Part shown: positions 3,975 through 23,531 of the stretch, in pieces
How the letters are laid out: each line of letters starts with the position of its first letter
Numbering within the stretch: the first letter of the stretch is position 1
Assembly: GCA_021781515.1 (NCBI GenBank)
Contig: JAJXWR010000013.1
Coordinates: 1-40,152 of the forward strand
Length of the DNA: 40,152 nucleotides
Origin: Pseudomonadota bacterium
GTDB lineage: Bacteria; Pseudomonadota; Gammaproteobacteria; Pseudomonadales; Moraxellaceae
Reading direction: 5' to 3'
Notes under the pieces: model-generated
Seen by the model: only the letters and a program-made list of their open reading frames with translations
Told to the model about the DNA's origin: nothing
The model's database searches: none
Made by a program: the position numbers and the translations under genes

Positions 3975-5174
3975 TCAGAGTAACTCAATGGCCAAGGCAG
4001 TGGCTTCACCACCACCGATACACAAGGCGGCAATTCCGCGTTTCAGCTGACGCTGACGCAGTGCATGAAGCAGGGTCACGACAATCCTGCAACCAGATGC
4101 GCCGATGGGGTGTCCCAATGCACAGGCCCCGCCGTGTATGTTCATGCGCTCATGCGGAATCTGCAAATCCAGCATGGGCAGCATCGCCACCATGGCGAAT
4201 GCTTCGTTGATTTCAAATAAATCCACGTCATTGATACTCCAGCCGGTACGTTCCAGCAGGCGTTGAATGGCACCGATGGGAGCGAGGGTGAATTCTGCCG
4301 GTGCCCGGGAATAAGTGGACTGAGCGACAATACGCGCCAGTGGTTTTTGTGTAGTGGATAATGCATCTGCACGAGCCAGTATTATGGCGGCGGCTCCATC
4401 AGAAATGCTGCTGGAGTTGGCGGCAGTCAAAGTCCCGTTTTTGGCAAATGCGGGTTTTAACTGTGCAATTTTTTCCGGATTGGCTTTAAGTGGTTGCTCA
4501 TCCTGGGAAACCTCAGTGGTGCCCTGACGGGAGTTCAGGCTAACGGGTGTAATTTCTGCCTGAAACCAGCCTTCTTGTTGAGCGGTTTTTGCTCTGAGCA
4601 GGGAAGTGCGCGCAAAATCATCCATGGATTCCCGGCTGAGCTGGCGTTGATCGGCAGTTTCTTGAGCAAAACTTCCCATGGCCCGGCCAGTACCCGCATC
4701 TTCAAGACCATCAAGGAACAGATGATCTTTAAGGCTCTGGTGCCCCATACGCAGACCAGCACGGGCTTTTTCCAGCAGGTAAGGGGCATTACTCATACTT
4801 TCCATGCCACCGGCAGCAATCAGATGTGCATTACCAGCGCGCAGAACATCGGCAGCGAGCATCATTGCTTTCATTCCGGAGCCACATACTTTATTCACGG
4901 TCGTGGCACCGATTGACTCGGGAATTCCTGCGCCCAAGGAGGCCTGTCGGGCGGGGGCCTGTTTCAGTGCCGCCGGCAAGACGCAGCCCATAATGACTTC
5001 ATCCAGTTGTTCCGCTGCAATCTGGCTGCGTGCAATGGCAGCCTTCAGGGCCAAGGCACCTAATTCGGTAGTGGTAACTGAAGACAGGCTGCCTTGAAAA
5101 CTCCCAATAGGTGTGCGGGCTGCTCCCAAAATAACGATGTCGGTCTGGTTTTTGCTTTGGTTTATCGTACTCAT
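3975..5174 (-). CDS. Acetyl-CoA C-acetyltransferase (thiolase)
   Basis: This is a type II thiolase (AtoB/PhaA type) of 399 residues. It interconverts two acetyl-CoA and acetoacetyl-CoA plus CoA, for short-chain fatty acid or ketone metabolism or polyhydroxyalkanoate precursor supply. The nucleophile Cys97 lies in 'NKVCGSGMKA', the catalytic His in 'GACALGHPIGASG', and the second Cys in 'LCIGGGEATA' near the C-terminus, where most relatives have GGGQ. I chose ATG 5174 because the family homology starts a few residues later ('DIVILGAARTP'). The TTG at 5234 would add 20 unrelated residues. The ATG overlaps the stop of a short leader ORF. No phaB or phaC is nearby, so the pathway is not fixed. 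Confidence 0.92.
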   Translation of the reverse strand: MSTINQSKNQTDIVILGAARTPIGSFQGSLSSVTTTELGALALKAAIARSQIAAEQLDEVIMGCVLPAALKQAPARQASLGAGIPESIGATTVNKVCGSGMKAMMLAADVLRAGNAHLIAAGGMESMSNAPYLLEKARAGLRMGHQSLKDHLFLDGLEDAGTGRAMGSFAQETADQRQLSRESMDDFARTSLLRAKTAQQEGWFQAEITPVSLNSRQGTTEVSQDEQPLKANPEKIAQLKPAFAKNGTLTAANSSSISDGAAAIILARADALSTTQKPLARIVAQSTYSRAPAEFTLAPIGAIQRLLERTGWSINDVDLFEINEAFAMVAMLPMLDLQIPHERMNIHGGACALGHPIGASGCRIVVTLLHALRQRQLKRGIAALCIGGGEATALAIELL

Positions 5175-5245
5175 CAGTTTGTGGCAAGATCCCCGACATA
5201 GTGGTTTATGGCGGGGTGGGATAGCGCTGGCCAACTGGCCACCAT
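5174..5245 (-). CDS. 23-codon leader ORF coupled to thiolase
   Basis: A short ORF (MVASWPALSHPAINHYVGDL plus ATN) starts at the ATG 5245-5243. AAGGAG (5260-5255) lies 9 bases upstream, the best Shine-Dalgarno sequence in this area. Its TGA overlaps the thiolase ATG by one base (TGATG). The thiolase start itself has no good binding site, so translation probably reaches it by coupling. Alternatively the thiolase could start in another frame by error, but the 20 upstream residues in its own frame do not look like thiolase. The peptide has no recognisable function. Confidence 0.5.
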   Translation of the reverse strand: MVASWPALSHPAINHYVGDLATN

Positions 5246-5298
5246 TCCTGCGGTCTCCTTAAAAAAATGGCTATCTCAGGTTTAAAGGAATTCAGCGC

Positions 5299-5811
5299 TC
5301 ACCGGTTAGGGAGACAGCATTTCTTAAATTTTTTCCCACTACCACAGGGGCAGGGATCATTCCGGCCGCAGGTAGGCGGTTTAACTACCGGCCGGGGTTT
5401 TTCCAGCGGGCCGCTAAACAGATCGTGGCCATCAACAAACCACCACGTCCCCTGTTCATGGCTGAAGGTACTCCGTTCATGGTGCAGATGCTGTATATTG
5501 CTGGTCTGGAACCGAACTTTGAATTCGACTTCGTCCTGCCTTAGATCCTGTTGATCTGGATGGCCAGGATCAAGAATTTCCAGTCCCAGCCATTGTGCAT
5601 TTACTGACCAGTTTTCCATGGCCTGACGATCGCCCAGATCCCGGTGATCCGGATGGGTGCTGTGCATAATAAAATCGATAGCGCCCAGGGTGTAGGCTGT
5701 ATAACGGGCACGCATCAGTTCCAGCGCACTGGTCGCTGGCCGTTGGCCATCTATAATCGGCTGACAACATTCACTCAAGGGTAACGAGGAGCCGCATGGG
5801 CATAAGGTCAT
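5299..5811 (-). CDS. ychJ: YchJ-family (UPF0225) SEC-C motif protein
   Basis: This 170-residue protein matches the YchJ/UPF0225 family. An N-terminal Cys-rich motif '[13 protein letters not shown]' (4-16) is followed by an NTF2-like middle ('[17 protein letters not shown]', '[13 protein letters not shown]', '[13 protein letters not shown]') and a C-terminal SEC-C zinc motif '[18 protein letters not shown]'. SEC-C motifs bind zinc and in SecA contact SecB; the role of YchJ itself is not established. It is slightly longer than E. coli YchJ (152) because of a Pro-rich spacer before the SEC-C motif. The ATG at 5811 is set by the conserved N-terminus; the ribosome binding site is weak. Confidence 0.88.
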
Positions 5812-6152
5812 AATTAGTCAATCCATCTGTGGGCTATTGGCGATCCGCTGTGGGCGAATGGAAAAAGTAGCAACAGCATTACGGGTTCAGCGACGCCTAT
5901 TAAGCCAAATTTATGAGCAGTTGCCAAGCCGCTAGTTTAACATCAGGATGATATTTTTGTAGACGTTCAACGGCGGGTTGCGGCGCAGGTAGGAATGGTT
6001 TAAGGGATTGGCTTGTATTTATGGCATTTTTTTTGCATTGTTTTAGGTGTTGAATGGTCAGTGAGTGACGGCAGGGGAATTACTGAGGCGACGTGCGCTC
6101 AGGAGCGACTCTCCGGTGGCCCGACAGGGTTCATTGAAAACAGGAACGCATC
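5812..6152. other. Divergent intergenic region ychJ / fliK
   Basis: This 341-base gap separates the minus-strand ychJ from fliK. It contains the sigma-54 promoter at 6021-6037. The fliK ribosome binding site is an AGGA around 6142-6145. I see no small gene. Confidence 0.5.
6021..6037 (+). promoter_or_regulatory. Sigma-54 promoter of fliK
   Basis: ATGGCATTTTTTTTGCA matches the RpoN consensus (TGGCA then TTGCA) with the invariant GG (6023-6024) and GC (6035-6036) exactly 12 bases apart. The predicted transcript start is about 6048, giving a leader of about 105 bases before fliK. It fits class II/III flagellar control by a FleQ/FlrA- or FlrC-type activator; flrC is in this window. Confidence 0.75.
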
Positions 6153-7415
6153 ATGGTGACTATGGTATCGGGTTTTAGCAACACAGTGGCTCCCGTTGCA
6201 GCGGATTCTGCTGCTGCGCTGACAGCGACGGACGGTGGCTCTGCAGGCAGCAATTTTGCCAATCTGTTAAAACAGGCAACTCCTGAACCCGCTGCAAGCC
6301 CGCCGGTAGTCGCTCAGCAGACTCCCTCTCAGGAAAAACAGATGACGCCAGACAAAAAAGCCCATGTGAAGCGGCAACCTGTGGCAGCAGAAGCCGGAGC
6401 GAACGGTAATCCCTTGCCTGTGGGCTGGCCGGCGGCGATGCCGGCACCGCAGACTACTCTGTTATTGCAGGGCCGGGCAGCTGCCGGGGCTGGTTCTGCA
6501 GTGGCGGGTACGGTGAACGGTGAAAAAACAGCCGGTGGCAGTCGTACAGCAAGGTCAGGTAAGCAGGATAAATTGCTGCAGTCTGCTGTGGAGCGGGGCG
6601 GATTATCTGGTGCATTGACGCACACTGTGGCGGTAGAACAGGGAAACGGCCTTTCAGGCTGGCAGTCACCGCATGCTGGTACAGCGGCAACGGGCGGTGG
6701 TTCTGCGGGGAGTGATCAGGCCGCCGCTGCAAAAAAACAGGTGATGGGGGCGGTGGAAACTGGTGGCAATTTACGTTCGGAAGCCGTAGCACTAACGACT
6801 CAGCTGACCCACTCAGCGGCCAGTGGGGTTCTGTCAACGGCGGCGGATGCCCGGCAACATCCGGCGCAAGGCACTGGTGGATCGTCTGGATCGTCGACTG
6901 CCGCCGCATTTGCCGGAACGTTGACCGGGGTGTTGAATGCTTCGGGAGTCAGGCAGGCGGCGACTGGCGTGCCGAGTAATACAGCGAAAATTTCGGCTCC
7001 GCTGGGGTCGGCTGCTTTTGATGCGGCATTGGGACAACATCTGTTGATGATGGCGGGCAATGGGACTCCTACGGCACGTATTCATCTGACCCCCGCTGAG
7101 TTGGGACCTATTGCCGTGGAAGTGCGTCTTTTGGCACAAAATCAGGTGGCGGTAACCATGATGGTCAGTCATAGTCAGACTCATCAGGTATTGCAACAAT
7201 CGCTGGTGCATTTACAGGAGGCATTTCAGGCGCAGGGAATGCAGTTGCAGACCAGCTTGAGTGGAGGCCAAGGCAATGGGCAACAGGCTCCCGGACGTGA
7301 AGAATGGTTACATAATACACAGTCTGGAGCCTCTGCTCTGCTGTCGCCGTCTGTGGAACTGGCGCAGGCGGCTAAAGCGGTCAATCAATCGTCGTTGCTG
7401 GATACTTATGCCTGA
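6153..7415 (+). CDS. fliK: Flagellar hook-length control protein FliK
   Basis: FliK is an exported molecular ruler. Its C-terminal domain touches FlhB and switches export from hook to filament substrates. The protein has 420 residues. The N-terminal two-thirds is low-complexity, rich in Ala, Gly, Gln, Ser and Thr, as usual. The conserved C-terminal domain (about 300-385) contains 'ARIHLTPAELGPIAVEVRLL', then 'VAVTMMV' and 'LQEAFQAQGMQLQT'. The start is ATG 6153, with a second ATG at 6162 also possible. It lies directly upstream of fliL, the pseudomonad and vibrio order, and behind a sigma-54 promoter. Confidence 0.92.
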   Translation: MVTMVSGFSNTVAPVAADSAAALTATDGGSAGSNFANLLKQATPEPAASPPVVAQQTPSQEKQMTPDKKAHVKRQPVAAEAGANGNPLPVGWPAAMPAPQTTLLLQGRAAAGAGSAVAGTVNGEKTAGGSRTARSGKQDKLLQSAVERGGLSGALTHTVAVEQGNGLSGWQSPHAGTAATGGGSAGSDQAAAAKKQVMGAVETGGNLRSEAVALTTQLTHSAASGVLSTAADARQHPAQGTGGSSGSSTAAAFAGTLTGVLNASGVRQAATGVPSNTAKISAPLGSAAFDAALGQHLLMMAGNGTPTARIHLTPAELGPIAVEVRLLAQNQVAVTMMVSHSQTHQVLQQSLVHLQEAFQAQGMQLQTSLSGGQGNGQQAPGREEWLHNTQSGASALLSPSVELAQAAKAVNQSSLLDTYA

Positions 7416-13530: not shown

Positions 13531-15075
13531 ATGATACATCGGGCGTTGGGTGGATGTGCCGCTTTGGGTGTGGTGCTGTGGGGGATAGGTGTGGTTCAGC
13601 CGGTCTGGGCATTGTCAGATCTTTCTGATTCCCAGATGTCAGCGGTTGATGGTGAAGGGGTTGCCATCGTTCTTGAAAATATCCGTGCCACAATGGCACC
13701 GACCAGTTACGTGGAAGCGGTGGGTTCTCCTGACACTGATCCTTCGGTGATTGCCAGCAACGGTGCCCCTTTATTCAGCGGGGCCAATTATCAGTTCTTG
13801 GGTTTGAGTGTGACAGGTACCGGGCCAGGCGAAGGTTTTGGTGGTTCGGGCTGTAATACCGGTGGCCTTTCTGGAGACTTGGCCTGCGCCTTGGGAACCG
13901 CAGCCATCAGCAATCTGGCGGCTTTTGATAATCCACTGATACTGCGGGTGCACTCGTATGACGGCTATAATTTGTCCAACAATTATGTGCCTAACACCGT
14001 GGTGGAGCTGTTGGGGCCGACCAATATGGATCCTTTTCGCCTGGCGCTGTGGACGCAGATTACGCAGTTGAATAATTCCGGGGGAGGGGTGGCTAGTAAT
14101 GGGCTGTTTCAAGGTCAGTTGATCATGGAGGGTAAACTGGCGTCCTTCAAATATTCGCCGCTGATTGGGGGAGTGTCCGCCAATAATCCGATGGCGGGAT
14201 TTGATGCGCGACTTTTCCAAGTGTCGGACAGCAATGCGGGTGATCCTAATTATCAGGCACTGGGCCTGAATATGACCAGTGCCTTTTCGGGAGATATGCG
14301 TATCAGTGTCAATCAAACCAGTGCCAGTCCGAATGCACTTAACCAAGTTCCGGTGTTTGACCAGCAGGAAGGCTTGTTTATCAAGAACCTGTATGTCTAC
14401 TTACCGATGGGTGGCCTGAATTATCAGGCACTGGTGTTTAATACGAATGGCACGGCATCGACCTCTAACGGTAATTTCATGATTGAACTGACCGCTATTC
14501 CGGCACCTAGTGGTGGAGACTGTACTTTCGGACAAGCAAGTGCTTGCGCGGCAGCCTACGGCCTTGTGAGCGGTGATTCATCCGGTTATGGTACGGCGTT
14601 TGACTCTCGGGCTCCGATGAGCGGATCGGGCAGTGGTTTTGGTAATAGTGTGTCGTCGACCACTTATTATCAATCGCACGGCTATATAGACATGGGACTT
14701 TACAATCCCGGCTGTACAACGTCGACACAGTGCGGTATAGCACCGACGGCCGGTTCGACCAGTGACGGGATTTATTTTGCAACGGGAAATAATCTGCAAA
14801 ATACCGCCACTGCCGCTGCCAATACTGAGGTGGGTTTTAATTCCAGTGGCAGTTGTAGTGATACCTGGTGTGTTGAGCACAGCAATTATAGCTACACGAC
14901 CGGCGGAACGGCACCAAATACCCAGACTGTTTATAATGGTACTAATAATAACACCACGACGACCAATCCCTCAGGATCAGGGTATAACCCTGGCATTATC
15001 AATCTGGGGACGGCGCACATGGATGGCATTTTGATCAATCATTTATCGCTGACTACCTTGGGTGCAGGACGCTGA
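13531..15075 (+). CDS. Secreted Gly/Asn/Ser-rich protein, GQDG-type N-terminus (member 1)
   Basis: This protein has 514 residues. A signal peptide covers about 1-27 ('GGCAALGVVLWGIG', cleavage near 'PVWA-LS'). The mature N-terminus 'LSDLSDSQMSAVDGEGVAI' is the same motif as in the next three genes. The body looks beta-rich and is full of Gly, Asn, Ser and Thr. Its eight mature cysteines fall into four close pairs (spacings of 10, 7, 5 and 4 residues), suggesting small disulfide loops outside the cytoplasm. The motif recalls DUF6160/FilA-like proteins annotated near putative pilus genes in Acinetobacter, a weak resemblance. I chose ATG 13531 over a start at 13474 for its ribosome binding site and the signal peptide. 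Confidence 0.8.
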   Translation: MIHRALGGCAALGVVLWGIGVVQPVWALSDLSDSQMSAVDGEGVAIVLENIRATMAPTSYVEAVGSPDTDPSVIASNGAPLFSGANYQFLGLSVTGTGPGEGFGGSGCNTGGLSGDLACALGTAAISNLAAFDNPLILRVHSYDGYNLSNNYVPNTVVELLGPTNMDPFRLALWTQITQLNNSGGGVASNGLFQGQLIMEGKLASFKYSPLIGGVSANNPMAGFDARLFQVSDSNAGDPNYQALGLNMTSAFSGDMRISVNQTSASPNALNQVPVFDQQEGLFIKNLYVYLPMGGLNYQALVFNTNGTASTSNGNFMIELTAIPAPSGGDCTFGQASACAAAYGLVSGDSSGYGTAFDSRAPMSGSGSGFGNSVSSTTYYQSHGYIDMGLYNPGCTTSTQCGIAPTAGSTSDGIYFATGNNLQNTATAAANTEVGFNSSGSCSDTWCVEHSNYSYTTGGTAPNTQTVYNGTNNNTTTTNPSGSGYNPGIINLGTAHMDGILINHLSLTTLGAGR

Positions 15076-15077
15076 TC

Positions 15078-15734
15078 ATGAGCAATTACTCGCAGATTCT
15101 ATCGCTGATGTGGAAGTGGTGCTGCCTGTTGCTGCTTTGTGCGGCTCAGGTAGCGATTGCAGACATGCAGGGCCTGAGTGATACGGCACTATCGCAGGCG
15201 ACGGGGCAGGATGGGATTGCCATGCAGATAGATTTTCACCTGAATACCGGGAATGATGGTAACCCACTGTCAACCTTGGGAGGCTGTGGTGGGTCGTCGG
15301 CACAGGCGAGTCCCTGTACCCTGTCCATACAGGGTTACCGCCCCAATAATCCGAATCTCTGGTTGGTGTTCAAGGATGTGTATGGGTATTTAAGCATTCC
15401 GAATCTGATGATTGATGAACAGAATAATCCTAATGGGGCTACTGCGTACGCAAACCTCAGTCGTTTAAATGGTGTGTCGCCGCAAGGATTACCCACCATG
15501 GAGTTGCATTTTCATCCGGCCGGTGTTACTGCAGGGGATTGCACGGCAACAGCGACGAGTTGTGATATTAATTTGTTCTTGAATATCGGGCGTATGGCCA
15601 CAGAGTTTGGTGCCACGGGTTATCTTAATGATAATAATGGCAGTTTCATGGGGTTGAAAATTTCGGATCTTTCAGGGCCCACTGCCCCGGCCCGGATGAA
15701 TTTTGATGGACAGGTGCGCATCTATGGCTTCTAA
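15078..15734 (+). CDS. Secreted protein, GQDG-type N-terminus (member 2)
   Basis: This is the shortest member, 218 residues, starting 2 bases after member 1 stops. The signal peptide covers about 1-27 ('CCLLLLCAAQVAIA'). The mature start 'DMQGLSDTALSQATGQDGIAM' carries the clearest form of the shared motif. The mature cysteines form two pairs (9 and 6 residues apart). The segment 'LWLVFKDVYGYLSIPNLMI' and the end 'ARMNFDGQVRIYGF' suggest beta-strands. It may be an outer-surface or filament component; no enzyme motif is visible. It is certainly in the same transcription unit as members 1, 3 and 4. Confidence 0.8.
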   Translation: MSNYSQILSLMWKWCCLLLLCAAQVAIADMQGLSDTALSQATGQDGIAMQIDFHLNTGNDGNPLSTLGGCGGSSAQASPCTLSIQGYRPNNPNLWLVFKDVYGYLSIPNLMIDEQNNPNGATAYANLSRLNGVSPQGLPTMELHFHPAGVTAGDCTATATSCDINLFLNIGRMATEFGATGYLNDNNGSFMGLKISDLSGPTAPARMNFDGQVRIYGF

Positions 15735-16848
15735 ATCGTGGGGGTTTGCCTTCAGTGGCGGACGGCTTCTGGGAATGCTGTTTTTGTTGCTGACCTGTCT
15801 GTGCCTGAGTGTATCTGCCTCGGCGCAACTACAGGCTCTGTCGGATGGTTCCCTGGCGGAACAAAGTGGCCAGGGACTGCTCGACATGGTGACCATTAAT
15901 CCCGGACAGGCGGGTGCGGCATCGGCACCGGCAATTGATAATGGGTTGACGTTTTACCGGATGGCTATCAATGGCACATTGAACATGAATGCCAATATTA
16001 ATCAACTGAATCTGGGGTGTGGTGGGGTCAACGACGCATTGGTTCCCGGAGTCTGTGATATTAGTTTTGATTATGTGCGTTTTCTTGGAAATAATGGCAA
16101 TAATGGACCGGGCGCACCGGGCAGTGATTTTACATTGCAACGTCCTTATATTACCTTGGCTGTCAATAATGCGGGTAGTAATAATCGGGATCTGGTGGGC
16201 GTACAGATTGGCTCGCAGTCGGCTACTGGGTATTTTGGTGTAGGGCAGGTGCTGAATAATGGCCAGGTCAATCCCTATAACGGTAAGACCTGTGGTGGCA
16301 GTAACGATCCTAACTGTCAGATCGGTATCAATGCATTCAGTGGTAATATCGGGTTGACGATGAATGGGCAGGTGAGTGGTACGACTTGGCTGTTGCCGCT
16401 TCCTTATACCTCGAAAATCAATAATGTGTCCACTGTACAGTCAGGGACTCGCATGCAGCAGGCCTATGTGATGCTGTCTTCGACACCGACCACGATTGCC
16501 GGTTTATTGACGATCAATGCCTCAATTGCTTTGACGGAACCGATGAAATACATTCATGGTATGTCGTTTAATGGCATTCCGAATTTTGCCTTGTCGATGC
16601 AACGGCAGCAGGTATCCTGGCCCAATTATGATTATACGTCGGCGACGGATGGGTATTATGCGACACCTGCCAATACTGGGTGGTGGATGAATATGCCTTC
16701 CAATGTCACGATTAACGGCATCAATGGTACGTATAATCTCAGTGCCAGCCAGACGGCCGGGGCCTTGTTTGTGACGATACCGTTGTCGAATGTATCAATG
16801 GGTCAGACGCCAGTCCGAAACTGTATGGGTTCGGTTACTTTTTGCTGA
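15724..16848 (+). CDS. Secreted protein, GQDG-type N-terminus (member 3)
   Basis: This protein has 374 residues. The ATG at 15724 overlaps the end of member 2 by 11 bases, with GGACAGG upstream; a start at 15703 would only lengthen the n-region. The signal peptide has a strong core 'LLGMLFLLLTCLCLSV' and cleavage near 'ASA-QL'. The mature N-terminus 'LQALSDGSLAEQSGQGLLDM' is a degenerate version of the shared motif. Six mature cysteines form three pairs (11, 7 and 6 residues apart), the last at the very C-terminus ('RNCMGSVTFC'). The rest is Asn/Gly-rich and beta-like. Function is unknown. Confidence 0.78.
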   Translation: MASKSWGFAFSGGRLLGMLFLLLTCLCLSVSASAQLQALSDGSLAEQSGQGLLDMVTINPGQAGAASAPAIDNGLTFYRMAINGTLNMNANINQLNLGCGGVNDALVPGVCDISFDYVRFLGNNGNNGPGAPGSDFTLQRPYITLAVNNAGSNNRDLVGVQIGSQSATGYFGVGQVLNNGQVNPYNGKTCGGSNDPNCQIGINAFSGNIGLTMNGQVSGTTWLLPLPYTSKINNVSTVQSGTRMQQAYVMLSSTPTTIAGLLTINASIALTEPMKYIHGMSFNGIPNFALSMQRQQVSWPNYDYTSATDGYYATPANTGWWMNMPSNVTINGINGTYNLSASQTAGALFVTIPLSNVSMGQTPVRNCMGSVTFC

Positions 16849-16859
16849 TGGGGGATAGG

Positions 16860-19361
16860 ATGATGCGACAGACTCGTCAGAAAATAATCGCCAGAGATTA
16901 TTATGCTTCCAGGAAAATGCGGTTGTCACTGGCTGTGGCGTCTGCTTTGCTGGGAACCTCTGCCTCTTGGGCAATGACTGCTGTCGATGATACGGCACTG
17001 GCCGGTGTGACCGGTCAGGACGGCCTGACGGTGACCATGAATTCTGCTTCGCAGATTGGTGGACCGAGTTCGGTGGCGAAATGGAATCCCGACGGCCTTG
17101 GAAATGCCGCCAGTGCGGCCATCTTGCTGGATGGTTTGCAGTTTAATTCCATCGGTGCGGACGGTGCGGCGGCGGCCAATTCGAATTTTCAGGTGAATAC
17201 GAACCTGAATGTTGGAACCGACAGCAGCGGTAATTCGGAAATCAATGTGGGAATGTCGTGGACCCGGATGCGTGAGTTGATCCCGGGTGTCTATATGGCC
17301 AATGGGTCGAGCGGCACCATGTTACAAAGCAGCTATAGTCTGGGCAGTATGGTGCTGGACAGCAATGGCAGTTTTGTCATGAGCAATTCCGGCACTGGAT
17401 TGTTATCAGGGGGGAGTGTCAGCAGCAATGGCGGTACCCCGGTTTTTAACGGAGTGGCTGGTCGACAACTGGAACTGACGCTGGGTACACCGCAGTTTGA
17501 TATTTCCAGTCCGGCAGGGCCCAGTGCCCAACTGTATTATCGTCAGGGAGGGGCGGGTAGCCCGGAACTGGTGATGGATAAGCTGTACTTGCAGATGGGC
17601 TTTCCGGCCTCTACGGGTGGGGTGATTGGTGCCTGCAGTTCAGCGTCTTCCTGTGGTTCATTCGTACCCGGGTCATCCGGACTGTATGTTGGGGCACCGA
17701 CGCTGAATTTTAATTTTAATTATCGCCTGGATTACATTGCTACGCCTCCTTCGGGTTCGTCGTATACCACTGTAGGGATGGCTCCCTATACACAGAGTTT
17801 GGCGTATACCGGGTGGACCGGTAATTTTAATAATGCAGAGTTGTTGATGTCGGGTGGTGGGGTCTGGTCCGGACAGTCGACGTATAATCCGAACGTCCCT
17901 TCTGGGCGGAATCAGGGGATGAATTTTGCGTTTCATGCAGATTATGCACCGGATTTTACTTGGCTAATGGGGCTGGGCACTGGATCAGAAATCCTGAAAT
18001 TCAGCGACTGGACCAAGTTGACTGGTGCGCAGTGGGCGCTGAATGCTCCGAACGTAACGCTGGATGTGGTGAACCCGGGGCAGGGACCGGGTGGGCTGTG
18101 TTGGGGCAATACGGTGTATGGTACCAATGCCGGAGCCTGTATGACCTCGTTTAAACGGGTGTATGACAATCTGCAGATTACGCCGCAGTACCTTGATGTA
18201 ACACCGGGGCTTGGTGCCGCTAATGCCACTGCGCTCGGCGTGGTGTTCCGCAATGTTTCCTTGCAGGCCTATGCCCAGAAAGTGGTCTTGCTGGACGATG
18301 CGAATAACACGGGTTCCTACACCGGTGCGGTAACGGCAGCAAATGGCCATGTTGTTCCTAAAACACGCAGTGAGGGGTGGGGACTGATTTATACCTTTGG
18401 GGCACTGGATGGCAATGTGTACCTCTATCCGGGCGACTATGCCCCGGGTTCCAGCACCCCGTCAGGGGATGGGGTGACCTTGGATGTGTTGTTAATGTCC
18501 CAGTCGACGGCTAATAATCCGAATAAATTGTTAGGCAATACCAACTTCATGATTGCCGACACGACTAAAGGCTATGGCATTGGGTTGTTGCAGGCCAACC
18601 TGTTGTTTGGTGCCCATCAGTTGGACTTTAATATGTTGCCCACCGGAATCAATCTGGTGACCAATGATATGCGTGCAGAGATCAATGGGCGTCTGGGTGG
18701 GGGATCGGTGCCCTCAATGACGGCGGTGATCAATATCGGTAATATTGATGTGAACCTCGAAGGGGGGATCAATCTGTTGATTACTGGCGAGACCACCAAG
18801 ACCCAGAGTCAGGATACGGCGACTAACAATCAGTACGCACTGTATGTGCCTGGCAGTTCGCCGTTGAGTGCCACCGGTGCCACGGTGGACAAGTACATTT
18901 ATAGCAATCCGTATTCGTCGGGGGCTGGCTACAATTATCTGGGTTTTTCTGGAACGATGACTTTGGGTAGTTCGGCGACTTTCGGTAAAGGCTGTTCCGA
19001 TCCTTCAGCGATGGGGGTGGGTTGTACGGACAGTTATATTTCTTTGGGTGAACCTTCACAGCCCGGTGTGGATGTGCGTTTTGCGGATTTACAGGGAACT
19101 CTGAGAATTTTGAATGGTAGAATATTTTTGGCCTCCGCTGGTGACCCGGTGATGGGTGGCCCGAATAGTCTGCCGGGGTTGCAGATTGCCGCCGATGTAC
19201 AGGTGGGAAGCACCGCTGGGGGGCAGGCGTTGGCCACCAATGTGATGCTGGGGACGCAAAATTCCTCAGGGTCATTTAGTGGCAACTATGCTGCATTGGG
19301 AAGTATTGTGATGCCTTCGGGGCAGATGTACAGTTCTATTGTTCTGAAACCGCAGCATTAG
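16860..19361 (+). CDS. Large secreted protein, GQDG-type N-terminus (member 4)
   Basis: This is the largest member, 833 residues. The signal peptide is at about 19-45 ('MRLSLAVASALLGTSASWA') after a basic N-terminus. The mature N-terminus 'MTAVDDTALAGVTGQDGLTV' carries the shared motif. Six cysteines form three pairs (5, 12 and 9 residues apart). The body contains many alternating beta-like stretches and repeated words such as 'NIGNIDVNLEGGINLL'. Possible starts are 16848 (TGATG overlap with member 3), 16860 and 16863. I prefer 16860 because GGGGGA lies just upstream. No membrane anchor or sortase motif is seen. It is probably a surface or filament protein. Confidence 0.8.
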   Translation: MMRQTRQKIIARDYYASRKMRLSLAVASALLGTSASWAMTAVDDTALAGVTGQDGLTVTMNSASQIGGPSSVAKWNPDGLGNAASAAILLDGLQFNSIGADGAAAANSNFQVNTNLNVGTDSSGNSEINVGMSWTRMRELIPGVYMANGSSGTMLQSSYSLGSMVLDSNGSFVMSNSGTGLLSGGSVSSNGGTPVFNGVAGRQLELTLGTPQFDISSPAGPSAQLYYRQGGAGSPELVMDKLYLQMGFPASTGGVIGACSSASSCGSFVPGSSGLYVGAPTLNFNFNYRLDYIATPPSGSSYTTVGMAPYTQSLAYTGWTGNFNNAELLMSGGGVWSGQSTYNPNVPSGRNQGMNFAFHADYAPDFTWLMGLGTGSEILKFSDWTKLTGAQWALNAPNVTLDVVNPGQGPGGLCWGNTVYGTNAGACMTSFKRVYDNLQITPQYLDVTPGLGAANATALGVVFRNVSLQAYAQKVVLLDDANNTGSYTGAVTAANGHVVPKTRSEGWGLIYTFGALDGNVYLYPGDYAPGSSTPSGDGVTLDVLLMSQSTANNPNKLLGNTNFMIADTTKGYGIGLLQANLLFGAHQLDFNMLPTGINLVTNDMRAEINGRLGGGSVPSMTAVINIGNIDVNLEGGINLLITGETTKTQSQDTATNNQYALYVPGSSPLSATGATVDKYIYSNPYSSGAGYNYLGFSGTMTLGSSATFGKGCSDPSAMGVGCTDSYISLGEPSQPGVDVRFADLQGTLRILNGRIFLASAGDPVMGGPNSLPGLQIAADVQVGSTAGGQALATNVMLGTQNSSGSFSGNYAALGSIVMPSGQMYSSIVLKPQH

Positions 19362-19413: not shown

Positions 19414-20211
19414 ATGAGTGCTACGTTCATGCCTGTCACCGAAGACAGGCAGCCTGCGAAGTGGCTGGAGATGTTCGCAGAGCGGGGGTATCTGTTATTC
19501 AGCAATTGTCTGCAAGGCACTGAGATTCACCGGTATCGCAGTTGGCTGGAACAGGCTATCGAAGCAGAAGCCCACTGGCGGGGTCAGCGACAGGGGCATG
19601 ATGCGTATCAGTGCGTTTTTTTACCGTACCACCATCAAGGTTTTTTTGAGTTGTTGAGACATGAACTCTTGTCTCAGATCATCAATCTGTTACTAGGTGC
19701 ACAATGCACGCTTTATTCGTTCAGCAATTCCAGCATGCCGTCAGGAGCTGGTAATTTTTCTTCCAGAATTCATGTGGATCGGCATTATTTTACAGGGTCC
19801 TGGCTGGAAGGGGTTGGTGTCTTGTTAGCGCTGGATGATTTTTGCGAAGCCAATGGAGCGTCTTGGTGGCTTGCTGGTTCGCACACGCATGCTGAAGCTC
19901 CGATGGCTGAGCATTTCTATGCGTCAGCGCAGCGTCTTTGTGTTCCTGCCGGTTCTTTGCTCATCTTTCATCCCAGGCTATGGCATGCTGGAGGCATTAA
20001 TCAAACCACCACGCCTCGGCATGCGGTGACCATGGCCTTTTGTAAGCCGCATATCAAACCCCGACTGAATTTTTTAGCACTGATGCAAGGCCGATTGCCC
20101 GAAGATCCGCAAGTATTACAGCGGCTAGGGATGTATGCACAACCGCCGGAGTCGCTGGAGCAGTTTTATTCCGCAAAACCGACGCATTCACAGGATCTGC
20201 GCAACTGCTGA
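19414..20211 (+). CDS. Phytanoyl-CoA dioxygenase (PhyH)-family Fe(II)/2-oxoglutarate oxygenase
   Basis: This 265-residue protein has the double-stranded beta-helix core of PhyH-like non-heme iron oxygenases. The iron-binding HxD is in 'RIHVDRHYFTG', the distal His in 'FHPRLWHAGGINQT', and an Arg suitable for 2-oxoglutarate binding follows in 'TPRHAVTMAF'. The section 'LDDFCEANGASWWLAGSH' is typical of the family. The substrate cannot be told from sequence. Relatives modify lipids, small metabolites or sugar-linked molecules. It lies 52 bases after the secreted-protein cluster and 24 before a glycosyltransferase-like gene, so a role in modifying a surface glycan or lipid is possible but inferred. 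Confidence 0.82.
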   Translation: MSATFMPVTEDRQPAKWLEMFAERGYLLFSNCLQGTEIHRYRSWLEQAIEAEAHWRGQRQGHDAYQCVFLPYHHQGFFELLRHELLSQIINLLLGAQCTLYSFSNSSMPSGAGNFSSRIHVDRHYFTGSWLEGVGVLLALDDFCEANGASWWLAGSHTHAEAPMAEHFYASAQRLCVPAGSLLIFHPRLWHAGGINQTTTPRHAVTMAFCKPHIKPRLNFLALMQGRLPEDPQVLQRLGMYAQPPESLEQFYSAKPTHSQDLRNC

Positions 20212-20235
20212 CCTATCATTTCCGGGAACCATGTA

Positions 20236-20910
20236 TTGAATCGCCAGATGAATTTGTCGTTGACACTGTTGTCAACCCGGCACAGTGATGAACGGGTAAA
20301 TCAGGCCCTGTGGGAAGCCTTGCAGAAACTACATACGCTCAGGGATTTTCAGGTCATTCTCGTCAATGATCTTTTTGCCGCCTGGGAGGTTCCGGCGGTA
20401 GATTTTCCACTGGAGTGTCTGAATACCGCAGGCATGGGGCAATATCAGGCGATATTGCAGGGATTAACACGTTGTCGCAGTGACATTGTTATTATTTTTG
20501 ATCCGGATTATGCGGCAATACTGGATGTATTGGTGGATCAGTTGCTGTCTGCCTGTGCGTTGGGCTTTGACTGGGTATTACTGCGGCGCTTACAGCGGCC
20601 GGGAGTGGCTGCCTCAAGGCGCTGGCTATCCAATAGTTATAACCAGTTGTTGCGATGGATGTGCGCTCTTGGTGTACATGATATCAATAGTCCGGTAATG
20701 GCATTGACAGCAACGGCACTGCGACAGTTGCCTGACTTGCCGCAAGGCGAAGTTAAACTGCACCTGTATGACCGGTTATCCGGGCGAGTGACAGAAATTG
20801 CAGCCGATGCCCCGCAGTCTCCGGGGCGCAGCAGTTATTCCCTGTGGAATTTGCTGCCAGTCCTTGTCGCCAGAGTGCTGGCGGTGTTGCAGTATTTTTA
20901 CTACCGTTAA
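20236..20910 (+). CDS. Glycosyltransferase family 2-like protein
   Basis: This 224-residue protein looks like a GT-A fold, GT2-type transferase. An N-terminal beta-alpha unit ('NLSLTLLSTRHSDERVNQAL'), 'FQVILVNDLF' and the acidic motif 'DIVIIFDPDYAAILDVL' (about 91-107, DPD in place of DxD) are visible. It is close in style to dolichol-phosphate mannose synthase-like enzymes, with a hydrophobic C-terminal stretch. It has no full transmembrane domain. The start is TTG 20236 or ATG 20248. The N-terminal nucleotide site is weaker than usual, so donor specificity and activity are uncertain. It ends 6 bases before the convergent acetyltransferase. Confidence 0.65.
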   Translation: MNRQMNLSLTLLSTRHSDERVNQALWEALQKLHTLRDFQVILVNDLFAAWEVPAVDFPLECLNTAGMGQYQAILQGLTRCRSDIVIIFDPDYAAILDVLVDQLLSACALGFDWVLLRRLQRPGVAASRRWLSNSYNQLLRWMCALGVHDINSPVMALTATALRQLPDLPQGEVKLHLYDRLSGRVTEIAADAPQSPGRSSYSLWNLLPVLVARVLAVLQYFYYR

Positions 20911-20916
20911 TGCGAT

Positions 20917-21888
20917 TTAGTCGGATACGGGGCCAGCGTACCAGTGCAAACTGTGGTGTACCGCCTTGAGTCGGGAAAAGCGCTCTAACACCCGATAGGC
21001 CTGCAAATGTGTCTGGGAAATGCGAATCTCGCAAAAGAGGTATGGGGTATCGCTGATCTGCTGGTGCAGTTGATGGATGAGTGGATAATAGACTCCTTGA
21101 CTACCGGGGATCGCCAGTACCAGACCATTTGCATAATAGCGTAATTGATTCAGGGATTCTGGTAGGATGAAGGCTTCGAGGAGGCCGATGGCGATTATCT
21201 GGTGGTTTTTTTCATAAATAACGGCTGGATTTGCAGTTGAAATGCCCAGAGGAGTGGTCTGTGGGGCTAACAGACGTTGAATCCAGGCCGCATACAGTGC
21301 AGACGATTGTGGTCTCAGCAATGGATCGCGCTGAAATCGTGACTCAATAGTGGATTGCTGTACGATTTGCAGGATGGCAGGGTAATCCGTGGCCCTGTAG
21401 GGGCGTGTATGGCTCATCATTGGGCTTTTGCGGGAGTGACTGAGTGGATGGCTATTGATAAACGTCAGTTTGGTGTCCATCAGTCGAAACCCGAGGTGCA
21501 GTAACTCATTGAGCAATGACCAATGTGTGGCATTGATTTCCAGGTGCCAGTGCCGGATGTCGTTGTTGTGTAACAAGCTAGAGAGCAGAAGGCGACAGGT
21601 ACTGCATAACTCTGTCTGTTTCATGGTACTCAGCAGTTGAATTTGTCCCATGGGCAAGCCAAAAAAATCACTATCCCACGGTAAAGGTTTCCAGGACAGC
21701 AATACAGCACCGCTTTGGTGTGGTAACCAGTAGTGTTTGCTGTAACCTAAGGTGTCGATGTAAGCGAGTTCCGCAACCGTTGCGTGCGTGGTGAAGGGCT
21801 TGTTTTGCCAGCGTGAACTGGAACCCAACAGTGACCAGTCCAGGGAGCGCAACGCTTCGGGAGGCAGTTCCGGGTGAGTAATAGACAT
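20917..21888 (-). CDS. WecD-like GNAT-family acetyltransferase
   Basis: This 323-residue protein contains 'KPLPWDSDFFGLPMGQIQLL' (residues 67-86), a hallmark of WecD/RffC-type enzymes that acetylate amino sugars on nucleotide donors. A GNAT core with 'YRATDYPAILQIVQQS' and a C-terminal 'ISQTHLQAYRVLERFSRLKA' follows. The GNAT acetyl-CoA loop is not perfectly conserved. Its start overlaps the stop of the upstream membrane protein by one base (TAATG), so the two are translated together. The likely role is decoration of a surface glycan; the substrate is unknown. Confidence 0.7.
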   Translation of the reverse strand: MSITHPELPPEALRSLDWSLLGSSSRWQNKPFTTHATVAELAYIDTLGYSKHYWLPHQSGAVLLSWKPLPWDSDFFGLPMGQIQLLSTMKQTELCSTCRLLLSSLLHNNDIRHWHLEINATHWSLLNELLHLGFRLMDTKLTFINSHPLSHSRKSPMMSHTRPYRATDYPAILQIVQQSTIESRFQRDPLLRPQSSALYAAWIQRLLAPQTTPLGISTANPAVIYEKNHQIIAIGLLEAFILPESLNQLRYYANGLVLAIPGSQGVYYPLIHQLHQQISDTPYLFCEIRISQTHLQAYRVLERFSRLKAVHHSLHWYAGPVSD

Positions 21889-23531
21889 TAGTACATCTGT
21901 TCCTTGAACTGTGAATGATCCGAGAGTCGATAGTTAGTAATATATACCTGATGCCTGCCTGCATGAAACAGCGGGCGACACACGCTACATTCAAGATTGC
22001 CGACAAACAAGGCATAGGTCGTCACTGCGGGATCCGGCGTGAATAGGGTCATGTATTGATAATAGGGTGCTTGAGGAAACAGGGTGAGTAGTTCGCCGTT
22101 CAGTGAATGTAGCGCCATCCCGGCGTTGACGGGGGTCAGACCAACGTGCAGTGAAGGGGGAAGTTGATCTGGATCCAGGAAGTAGAGGACATCGGTGTCA
22201 TTGATCAACAGGTAGGTGATGCCGGGAATTTTATGGACAGCCTGAGTGATGAAATCGGCCTGCCAGCGTATGGCTCGCAAATCAGCCTGATCCACCCAGA
22301 GAAATTGCGTAGCGACCGGCCCCACACCAGCGACGGGCCAGCGTCCTTCAGGTGCCCATTGATAACGCAGGGGGTCGAGTTGCAGGCTGTGGTATGCAAT
22401 GAGATACAACACATAGGCAATCAAGGTGGCAGTGAGGGCTTTACGTGTCTGTTGCATCCAGGTGGCTGTCCATAGCGAATGCATCAGGCTGGCCCAGCCC
22501 AACAGCAAGGCGGGCAGTAAAATGACAAAGTAGCGGTCTTCGTAAAAAGACGCATGTAAACTGACGGTCAACAAAAACCATGCGCTGGAGAGCACTGCTC
22601 CTAGCCACAGTTCAACGTGGCGACGCAGACGCAGCGTCCATAGTCCAGCCAACCCGGGGAGTACCCAGAACGGTGAAAAATTACTTAAAAACTGACTGAA
22701 CTGGTAGCGGGGGCTAAAGTCGAAATGACTCATGTGTTGCCGCAAGAGGATACGCCAAGTCCAGTAATCGCTAGGATGCCGCAGATGCAGCAGTAAGAAT
22801 ATAAAGTAGAGCAGACCGGGAGTTAAGGTAATCATCAGGTTTTTATAATTTTTTTGACGCAGATCCAGAAAAACAAAGGGGATGATGATGAGTAAGGCAT
22901 CGGGGCGTACAAAAGGCAGGAATGCTGCACAGGCGGCCCGGGCGCGGTGCTGTTGTTGCAGGTGGAGCACCAGCAGCCAGGAATTACAGAAAAACAGCAG
23001 CAGTTCTCCCAGGAAACTGACCGAAACAAAAACAAACAACGGCATCAGGCCCAGTAGCCACAGGGCGGCCAGCGCAATACCCGGAGCAATTTCCAGCAGA
23101 CGCATTGACCGGTACAGTCCATAGAGTCCGGTAATGCCAAGCAAAGCATGCAGTGCTCGCAAGCCGCACAGATTATAATGGGTCGCCCAGCCGAGCAGAC
23201 CATCAATCAGCAGATTTCCGGGCAGTACGTAGTTCCATAGGTAAAGCGCCGGCTGTGTCCAGGCCTGGCGGCTGAGAAAATAGCGGTAGGCATCATCCAT
23301 GTTGAGTATGGGTAAACTGTCAACCCAATCGCCGGCCCAATGCAGGTCGGGTCGACACACCTGTTGACTGAGGTACAGGTACAGTCCGGTTAACAGCAAG
23401 ACACTGCTCAGCACGCATAGTGGCTCAATATATCTGAATCTTTTATATTTTTTGCCACTGGCGGGCCATGGGGGTGAAGCAGATGATGGAAACTTGGGGT
23501 CAACCGGCATTTCAGGATCCAGAGCAGCCAA
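21888..23531 (-). CDS. Multi-pass membrane protein, GT-C glycosyltransferase-like
   Basis: This 547-residue protein has about ten to twelve transmembrane helices after a Pro-rich cytoplasmic N-terminus. Between the first two helices lies 'PILNMDDAYRYFLSRQAW', an acidic loop motif like the catalytic Asp-containing first loop of GT-C (GT39/ArnT/PMT-like) enzymes. The C-terminal ~180 residues form a soluble periplasmic domain. Such enzymes transfer sugars from polyprenyl-phosphate carriers on the periplasmic side. With the WecD-like partner downstream in the same unit it may form a small glycan-decoration module. The assignment rests on topology and the DD loop, not on full family identity. Confidence 0.68.
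   Translation of the reverse strand: MAALDPEMPVDPKFPSSASPPWPASGKKYKRFRYIEPLCVLSSVLLLTGLYLYLSQQVCRPDLHWAGDWVDSLPILNMDDAYRYFLSRQAWTQPALYLWNYVLPGNLLIDGLLGWATHYNLCGLRALHALLGITGLYGLYRSMRLLEIAPGIALAALWLLGLMPLFVFVSVSFLGELLLFFCNSWLLVLHLQQQHRARAACAAFLPFVRPDALLIIIPFVFLDLRQKNYKNLMITLTPGLLYFIFLLLHLRHPSDYWTWRILLRQHMSHFDFSPRYQFSQFLSNFSPFWVLPGLAGLWTLRLRRHVELWLGAVLSSAWFLLTVSLHASFYEDRYFVILLPALLLGWASLMHSLWTATWMQQTRKALTATLIAYVLYLIAYHSLQLDPLRYQWAPEGRWPVAGVGPVATQFLWVDQADLRAIRWQADFITQAVHKIPGITYLLINDTDVLYFLDPDQLPPSLHVGLTPVNAGMALHSLNGELLTLFPQAPYYQYMTLFTPDPAVTTYALFVGNLECSVCRPLFHAGRHQVYITNYRLSDHSQFKEQMY

Follow-up and report, generated by a model that had tools for sequence, protein, structure and literature searches.

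The 40,152-nucleotide stretch of DNA analysed here (the window) lies in contig C22 (JAJXWR010000013.1) of a 2.79 Mb Moraxellaceae genome and carries, on its forward strand, four consecutive genes, m1-m4, whose products share an N-terminal element. This shared N-terminus is best read as the leader of a C39-type protease substrate, placed directly behind a Sec signal. The products of m1-m4 are probably envelope or surface proteins that bear two successive N-terminal tags and are clients of a Fap-like secretion pathway, though encoded away from its fil locus, and the likely protease for their leaders, judged from sequence, is FilB. The observations that carry this reading are the leader pattern, a recurrent gene cassette, the co-occurrence of that cassette with FilB, the conserved catalytic triad of FilB, and the homology of FilB and FilC to FapD and FapF.

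The four open reading frames (ORFs) follow one another with short gaps or overlaps. The first, m1 (13531-15075, +), encodes 514 amino acids (aa) with a signal peptide, a C39-like leader and a beta-rich body containing four cysteine pairs (108/119, 331/339, 395/401 and 442/447), and m2 (15078-15734, +) encodes 218 aa with a signal peptide, a leader and a body with two pairs (70/80 and 155/162). The third, m3 (15724-16848, +), encodes 374 aa from an ATG at 15724 that places it in an 11-base overlap with m2, and has a signal peptide, a leader and a body with three pairs (99/111, 190/198 and 367/374), while m4 (16860-19361, +) encodes 833 aa with a signal peptide, a leader and a long beta body with pairs at 259/265, 414/427 and 712/722. 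The start of m4 is uncertain, with in-frame starts at 16842, 16848, 16860 and 16917, and its residue numbers are counted from 16860. In all four proteins the motif stands directly behind a hydrophobic signal sequence, as read by eye. The initial annotation of this DNA had described four coupled genes, each with a signal sequence followed by a shared motif, and four, two, three and three mature cysteine pairs with 4-12 residues between partners, all of which is borne out by the residue positions. The likeness to DUF6160 and FilA, which it had put down as weak, proved genuine for m2 and m4. Against the Pfam DUF6160 family (PF19657, gathering cut-off 27 bits), m2 scored 31.6 bits (E 2e-7) and m4 30.7 bits (E 3.7e-7), both above the cut-off, m3 scored 17.1 bits (E 0.0065), under it, and m1 gave no match. 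The NCBIfam FilA model (NF050077) matched the N-terminal parts of m2 (26 bits, residues 21-53) and m4 (36.8 bits, residues 26-144) and gave no match at all to m1 or m3; its cut-off of 220 bits, set for the whole protein, was reached by none of the four.

C39 domains read three or four hydrophobic residues at positions -4, -7, -12 and -15 of a leader, as described in part of PMC7018657, and the pattern L(-12)xxxE(-8)L(-7)xxxxG(-2)G(-1), with a helix at -10 to -4, is given for C39 leaders in an excerpt of PMC6959990. The stretches behind the signal sequences of m1-m4 fall into this register. The leader of m1 (13612-13656, +; residues 28-42) has L-15, L-12, M-7, V-4, G-2 and E-1, that of m2 (15162-15209, +; residues 29-44) M-15, L-12, L-7, A-4, G-2 and Q-1, that of m3 (15826-15873, +; residues 35-50) L-15, L-12, L-7, Q-4, G-2 and Q-1, and that of m4 (16974-17018, +) M-15, V-12, L-7, V-4, G-2 and Q-1, so that m1 and m4 hold all four hydrophobic anchors and m2 and m3 three. 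Counted from the apparent signal-peptidase site, placed by eye, the leaders of these four proteins are 15-16 residues long; class II microcin leaders have 15-18 residues according to the text seen of PMC10233263. Because the residue at -1 is Gln or Glu in the window proteins (Glu in m1, Gln in m2-m4) and none of them has Gly-Gly, Gly-Ala or Gly-Ser at -2/-1, the leader is called C39-like and not double-glycine.

The same register was found in a wider set of 161 N-termini picked from homologues of m1-m4 and from FilA proteins, with the Gly of 'GQ' or 'GE' set to position -2 in the alignment. The pattern used for picking needed a preceding hydrophobic stretch and fixed -12, -7, -2 and, in part, -10 and -1, but left -15 free, and at -15 a Leu, Met, Ile, Val, Phe or Trp was nevertheless present in 155 of 161 leaders, with 1 at -16, 20 at -14 and 11 at -13. 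Positions -12 and -7, fixed by the pattern, are hydrophobic in 161/161, with Leu or Met at -7; -10 is mostly Asp or Glu and -2 mostly Gly. A hydrophobic residue stands at -4 in 24/29 m1, 13/19 m2, 18/34 m3 and 28/30 m4 leaders. The residue after Gly is mostly Gln, and among the 29 m1 leaders Ala (13), Glu (13), Gln (2) or Ser (1); the 13 ending in Gly-Ala carry a known variant of the C39 site. No leader was picked in 4/33 m1, 1/20 m2, 3/37 m3, 0/31 m4 and 1/64 filA sequences, several of these owing to wrong starts, and two evident mis-picks, one filA and one m3, remain in the counts. A 290 aa protein on another contig of the window's genome (L053 8198-9070, -; G000:C16) has a cytoplasmic-looking N-terminal part and one hydrophobic stretch, then LDDESLSEVSGQGG and a further tail; here the element preceding the leader is a membrane anchor and not a signal that can be cleaved off.

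The leaders were also scanned blind against family libraries with hmmscan, using a hand choice of 26 of 28 m1 leaders and of 34 leaders of the GQ type out of 70. The m1 leaders matched FilA (3/26) and DUF6160 (12/26), and the remaining NCBIfam matches were to pheromone VP1 (2), a mersacidin/lichenicidin lantibiotic (2), lactococcin G-beta (1), lichenicidin A2 (1), the lacticin 481 family (1) and a class I lanthipeptide (1), with Mersacidin (5), L_biotic_typeA (2) and one unrelated family (1) in Pfam. Most of these peptide families are processed by C39 proteases; the class I lanthipeptide is not. For the GQ-type leaders NCBIfam returned FilA in 25 cases, bacteriocin_sig in 2 and each of two lantibiotic families in 1. 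As a control, the 26 m1 leaders were shuffled once each and searched against NCBIfam, giving zero matches. The argument to be drawn from the scans lies in the kind of family matched and not in the score.

Homologues of m1-m4 were searched for with the bodies stripped of their leaders, and cluster together in relatives as a cassette conserved within the taxonomic order; the cassette loci were fetched because they matched and so give no rate. The gene order is m1-m2-m3-m4 in the window's kin (e.g. L037, L038, L042 and L110), m1-m2-m4-m3 in L043, L044, L109 and L113, and m3-m1-m4, with an m2-sized gene before m4 where one was called, in further families (L102-L104, L114 and L118). The genes of about 185-216 aa at the m2 position of this third type were not recovered by the m2 profile. 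The initial annotation had proposed components of one extracellular structure with a common entry or assembly signal, and had named the lack of a shared N-terminus, or homologues that never co-occur, as the outcomes that would speak against it; the leader register and the blind scans support a common entry or processing signal, the N-terminus is shared, and the cassettes recur. Iterated body profiles of m1, m2 and m3 did not overlap one another, and the m1-m3 bodies gave no match to the FilA profile. Between the m4 and FilA profiles 5 members are common, and the FilA body profile also recognises the large proteins (773-888 aa) found in the third arrangement, so m4 is a giant relative of FilA. 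The reading of the four as ordinary, unrelated secreted proteins was rejected in view of the shared leader, the cassette and the cysteine rule described below. The genes flanking the cassette vary between genomes. By eye, a PrpF-like or 2-isopropylmalate-synthase-like gene lies near the cassette in ten loci (L040, L045, L048, L109 and L110; L102, L104, L105, L114 and L118), and second clusters with divergent m1-, m3- and FilA-like proteins occur at L132 and L133, in G389 and G350.

In relatives the fil operon reads filA-filB-filC-filD-filE. Its filB product is a peptidase of the C39 family with an additional match to the FapD model; the FapF channel model is matched by FilC, and FilD belongs to the FadL family. 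The window's genome holds filB-filC-filD-filE in a row (L089) together with a FilF relative on contig C113, away from the cassette contig, and thus has the arrangement by which a Fap-like pathway was recognised, an unfused C39 peptidase gene adjoining that of a FapF-type outer-membrane channel (FilB to FapD, 1.4e-34; FilC to FapF, 2.2e-11). The same FilB matches solved double-glycine protease domains, with 6mpz first (4.6e-7), followed by 7n87, PCAT1 and ComA. The catalytic Cys, His and Asp are invariant in 39 of 39 aligned FilB/FapD-type sequences. FilB has a hydrophobic N-terminal stretch and no transporter part, and by analogy with FapD, described as periplasm-facing in part of PMC5557850, it most likely faces the periplasm. 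No leader protein was seen among the ORFs neighbouring the C113 fil locus; elsewhere in the genome two FilA-like proteins are encoded on C124 and one leader-bearing protein each on C10 and C16. Beside the FilF relative lies a lipoprotein-like gene of 1059 aa (L089 1249-4428, -; G000:C113) with no NCBIfam match.

The distribution of these genes was surveyed in 293 genomes of the order, taking DUF6160 at E <= 1e-4 and FilB at E < 1e-40, the latter limit being set after a gap from 4.7e-47 to 4.0e-36 had been seen. FilB was present in 38 genomes and DUF6160 in 39, with both in 37 and neither in 253, an agreement in 290 genomes, and strong FilB matches span eight families in this sample. The cassette marker m1 was found in 32/293 genomes, comprising 32 of the 38 with FilB and none of the 255 without it. 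Fifteen genomes in which the C39 match reached only the level of FapD have neither DUF6160 nor m1. In a class-wide sample of 114 genomes DUF6160 and strong FilB occur in the same three, and six others have FapD-level matches only; two of the three belong to the order sample as well, and the single DUF6160 match of the third (G046) is below the cut-off. All 12 named FilB carriers that were picked from 80 possess m1, including Acinetobacter nosocomialis, Marinobacter vinifirmus, Kistimonas asteriae and Pseudomonas aeruginosa PA7. The idea that these genes serve hydrocarbon use was rejected, as only the list of named carriers hints at it.

A second property common to these proteins lies in the mature bodies. 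Among 164 distinct bodies of m1-m4 homologues and FilA, 133 contain cysteine, always in even number (133/133), and in 131 of the 133 every cysteine belongs to a close pair, where about 5.7 bodies would be expected under random placing; 4 of 610 cysteines are unpaired. Among m1 homologues, and likewise among those of m4, the pairs mostly occupy non-conserved positions, and therefore they seem to be gained and lost as units. FilB, FilC, FilD and FilE do not follow this rule, all cysteines being paired in 0/39, 0/1, 7/28 and 12/25, respectively, of those with cysteine. The rule may reflect a limit on loop size imposed by passage through a narrow outer-membrane pore. A similar cysteine rule holds for autotransporters.

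AlphaFold models were built for m4 from 19 sequences and for m1 from 30. Both are beta-rich, with a mean predicted local distance difference test score (pLDDT) of 71.6 and a predicted template modelling score (pTM) of 0.78 for m4, and 66.0 and 0.65 for m1. In the m4 model pLDDT stays below 50 over residues 1-44, the last of which is the -1 Gln, with +1 as the start of the first strand. The first strand of m1 likewise begins at +1, with a helix at -10 to -7 and a leader that is not of uniformly low confidence; a short helix near -10 to -6 is seen in both models. Foldseek found no match to m4 under E 0.001 in PDB or BFVD, and the best VIA match to m4 (Z 8.4, root mean square deviation (rmsd) 6.5 over 159 residues) is about typical for models with no clear match. 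The fold search with m1 gave no confident relative (best Z 6.5, rmsd 6.7 over 177 residues). FapF (5o65) as a fold relative of m4 (Z 7.7, rmsd 9.3 over 207) was tied with unrelated barrels and nothing was drawn from it, and a function based on fold was rejected for both proteins for want of a confident match.

The comparison with Fap was extended to leaders. The Fap pathway has already been termed a hybrid secretion system with a C39 protease, and the active-site Cys of FapD is needed for secretion of FapC, both in the part of PMC5557850 that was available. FapD is required for secretion and its substrate is unproven in the seen parts of PMC5557850 and PMC6173800; a 2025 review, in the portion available, states that FapD 'is thought to' process FapE and FapF (PMC12822426), and the 2017 study raised the possibility that the periplasmic C39 class uses another recognition sequence (PMC5557850, in part). 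In 20 FapD-type loci and L092, FapE was found by body similarity and the leader stretches were read by eye. Behind the signal sequence of FapE lie stretches such as LKDAEMAELRGR, LSDSELAQLRGK and VPEEQLSEIRGK (L092, L234, L239, L241 and L243-L247), with a hydrophobic residue at -12, Leu or Met at -7, mostly Leu or Ile at -4, Gly at -2 and Arg or Lys at -1. In loci that lack FapE, related stretches occur in small proteins of other kinds, as P[ML]xxD[QE]LxxSSG[RK]QG (L233, L235-L237 and L240), ESLQQANGRQG (L238) and ELEQLRGR (L229 and L230), and L242 has weaker stretches only. Plain Gly-Gly occurs in some FapD-type loci, as LDDAELAQLRGG (L235), LTDQELSELRGG (L236) and ..MRGG (L229 and L231), in proteins where it stands behind a signal-like sequence (..ELAQLRGG, ..MRGG), encoded at 5549-6319 (-) of L235, 6381-7109 (+) of L236, 6737-7381 (+) of L229 and 5122-5880 (-) of L231. 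When Fil leaders were compared by hhalign with a Fap set of 18 hand-chosen leader fragments the two aligned in register (P 2.5e-6 and 4e-5), and shuffled leaders gave no alignment. A Fap-like system and a fil system occur in one genome at L092 and L059 (G014:C11).

Taken together, m1-m4 resemble three known systems and differ from each. They are like the Fil operon of Acinetobacter (NCBIfam pilus_FilA to FilF, DUF6160) in the N-terminal FilA/DUF6160 matches of m2 and m4, in the FilA-type body of large m4 relatives and in the restriction of m1 to genomes with FilB; unlike it, they are encoded in a cassette of their own, which the window's genome carries on a different contig from filB, with all four proteins below the FilA cut-off and the bodies of m1-m3 unmatched. 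The likeness to Fap (FapA-F, Pseudomonas) lies in the pairs FilB-FapD and FilC-FapF and in the similar stretch of FapE, but -1 is Arg, Lys or Gly in Fap loci and Gln, Ala or Glu in Fil, and Fil clients carry the leader themselves. With the double-glycine systems of ComA, LahT, PCAT1 and CvaB they share the spacing of hydrophobic anchors, Gly at -2, leader length, and the C39 family and triad of the protease, whereas the m1-m4 leader follows a Sec signal, FilB has no transporter part and is probably periplasm-facing, and the clients are of about 200-890 aa with mostly Gln at -1.

On this basis the following pathway is proposed. The Sec signal peptide would take the m1-m4 chains to the periplasm and then be removed, exposing the leader of 15-16 residues. 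FilB may bind this leader by its hydrophobic anchors, those at -15, -12 and -7 and in many cases one at -4, and would cut after G(-2)-x(-1), where x is Gln, Ala or Glu. The mature beta-rich chain, with short-range cysteine pairs only, could then pass the outer membrane by way of FilC, the FapF-like channel, with assistance from FilD and FilE, and the exported chains would remain on the surface. The identity of the leader and its link to FilB can be stated with good confidence; export through FilC is somewhat favoured, and it is doubtful that m1-m4 build a joint filament or coat.

Several observations weigh against this reading. The weakest point is the residue at -1, mostly Gln in place of the Gly, Ala or Ser of known C39 sites, as this would need an S1 pocket wider than that of known C39 enzymes. 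A hydrophobic residue at -4 is present in only 98 of 161 leaders (15/49 in FilA), with Ala in m2 and Gln in m3 of the window, and the columns fixed by the picking pattern (-12, -7, -2 and part of -10 and -1) are partly circular. The bacteriocin-type matches are individually weak (best E 0.0063) and come from few members. On the Fap side, several Pseudomonas-like leaders have Pro and not a hydrophobic residue at -15, the hhalign comparison is one of hand-chosen fragments, and the sole NCBIfam matches of the Fap fragments were to FapE and to one unrelated family, none being to a bacteriocin family. In the available part of PMC5557850, full N-terminal loss among Fap proteins by mass spectrometry is given for FapE only. 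The survey has three discordant genomes, G193 with FilB alone and G026 (75% complete) and G192 (one match, below the cut-off) with DUF6160 alone, and six FilB genomes are without m1. A candidate FilB in G026 was rejected, its match being an ABC (ATP-binding cassette)-type C39 protein followed by an ATPase-like ORF, and the genome was counted as discordant; a smaller comparison, with G026 recounted, stands at 18 genomes with both DUF6160 and FilB, 1 with DUF6160 only and 19 with neither. The genomes are moreover related, so that independent events are fewer than genomes and Fisher values overstate independence.

The Gln at -1, unusual for C39 cleavage, would suit a motif bound but left uncut by FilB or FilC, serving for sorting or docking in the manner of the C39-like domains of some type 1 secretion transporters, and non-cleaving domains of this kind do exist (PMC5557850 and PMC10233263, each in part). 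This is nevertheless unlikely, given that the catalytic Cys, His and Asp are kept in all aligned FilB/FapD-type sequences, that FapC secretion depends on the FapD cysteine, and that the first low-confidence stretch of the m4 model stops exactly at -1. A role of the N-terminus within a filament, as polymerisation strand or structural cap, with the resemblance to C39 leaders arising by convergence, is quite improbable: the presence of the motif in all four proteins and FilA, the name 'putative pilus' given to fil genes and the over-expression of FilF in the Acinetobacter baumannii pellicle (PMC3203104, in part) would suit such a role, but not the bacteriocin-leader families that appeared in blind scans and vanished on shuffling, the low model confidence across the m4 leader, or the confinement of m1 to genomes with a C39 protease, FilB.

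Several of the genera among the named FilB carriers (Acinetobacter, Alcanivorax, Marinobacter, Alkanindiges and Agitococcus) are known as oil or lipid users. That cassette and FilB merely mark a shared ecology of alkane- or lipid-using gammaproteobacteria, with no direct enzyme-substrate link, is very improbable in spite of these genera and of the different contigs that hold the two loci in the window's genome, since what the set has in common is a C39-type leader, the genomes with FapD-level C39 only lack both DUF6160 and m1, and the carriers also include Kistimonas and P. aeruginosa PA7.

A wider proposal can be put forward tentatively, as one about evenly poised between holding and failing. 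Periplasmic C39 proteases (FilB, FapD and kin) would define a two-leader route, in which the Sec signal acts first and a leader of double-glycine type must then be removed before the chain may pass a FapF-like outer-membrane channel. The route would serve a large, fast-evolving set of clients at scattered loci, with close cysteine pairing as the mark of chains bound to pass a narrow pore; the substrate of FapD would be FapE, with cleavage after G-[RKG], and the S1 preference of FilB would be shifted to Gln, Ala or Glu. What is new here is a putative system parallel to Fap that serves clients of its own, along with a definition of its leader and a conserved cassette of four client genes. A literature search, covering titles and the starts of abstracts and leaving most subscription papers outside its scope, found no link of FilB, DUF6160 or FapE to the C39 leader consensus, and DUF6160 came up in one of the papers covered, within a list. 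The leader offers a concrete, testable recognition sequence for the periplasmic C39 class and names many possible clients, including four unstudied conserved genes, and it replaces the label 'putative pilus', given to genes of Acinetobacter, Marinobacter, Alcanivorax and some Pseudomonas, with a specific hypothesis of secretion.

A scan for regulatory sites yielded 11 promoter-like sites against 7.3 +/- 3.1 in shuffles and 14 terminator-like sites against 6.1 +/- 2.2, none of which was used. Between m4 and a DUF748/AsmA gene, positions 19414-23531 of the window encode a PhyH-type dioxygenase, a GT2-like protein, a WecD-like acyltransferase and a 547 aa protein of unknown kind. In the sister genomes at L037 and L038 a gene that by eye resembles this DUF748/AsmA gene lies within 200 bases after m4, and the segment at 19414-23531 may thus represent a lineage-specific insertion.

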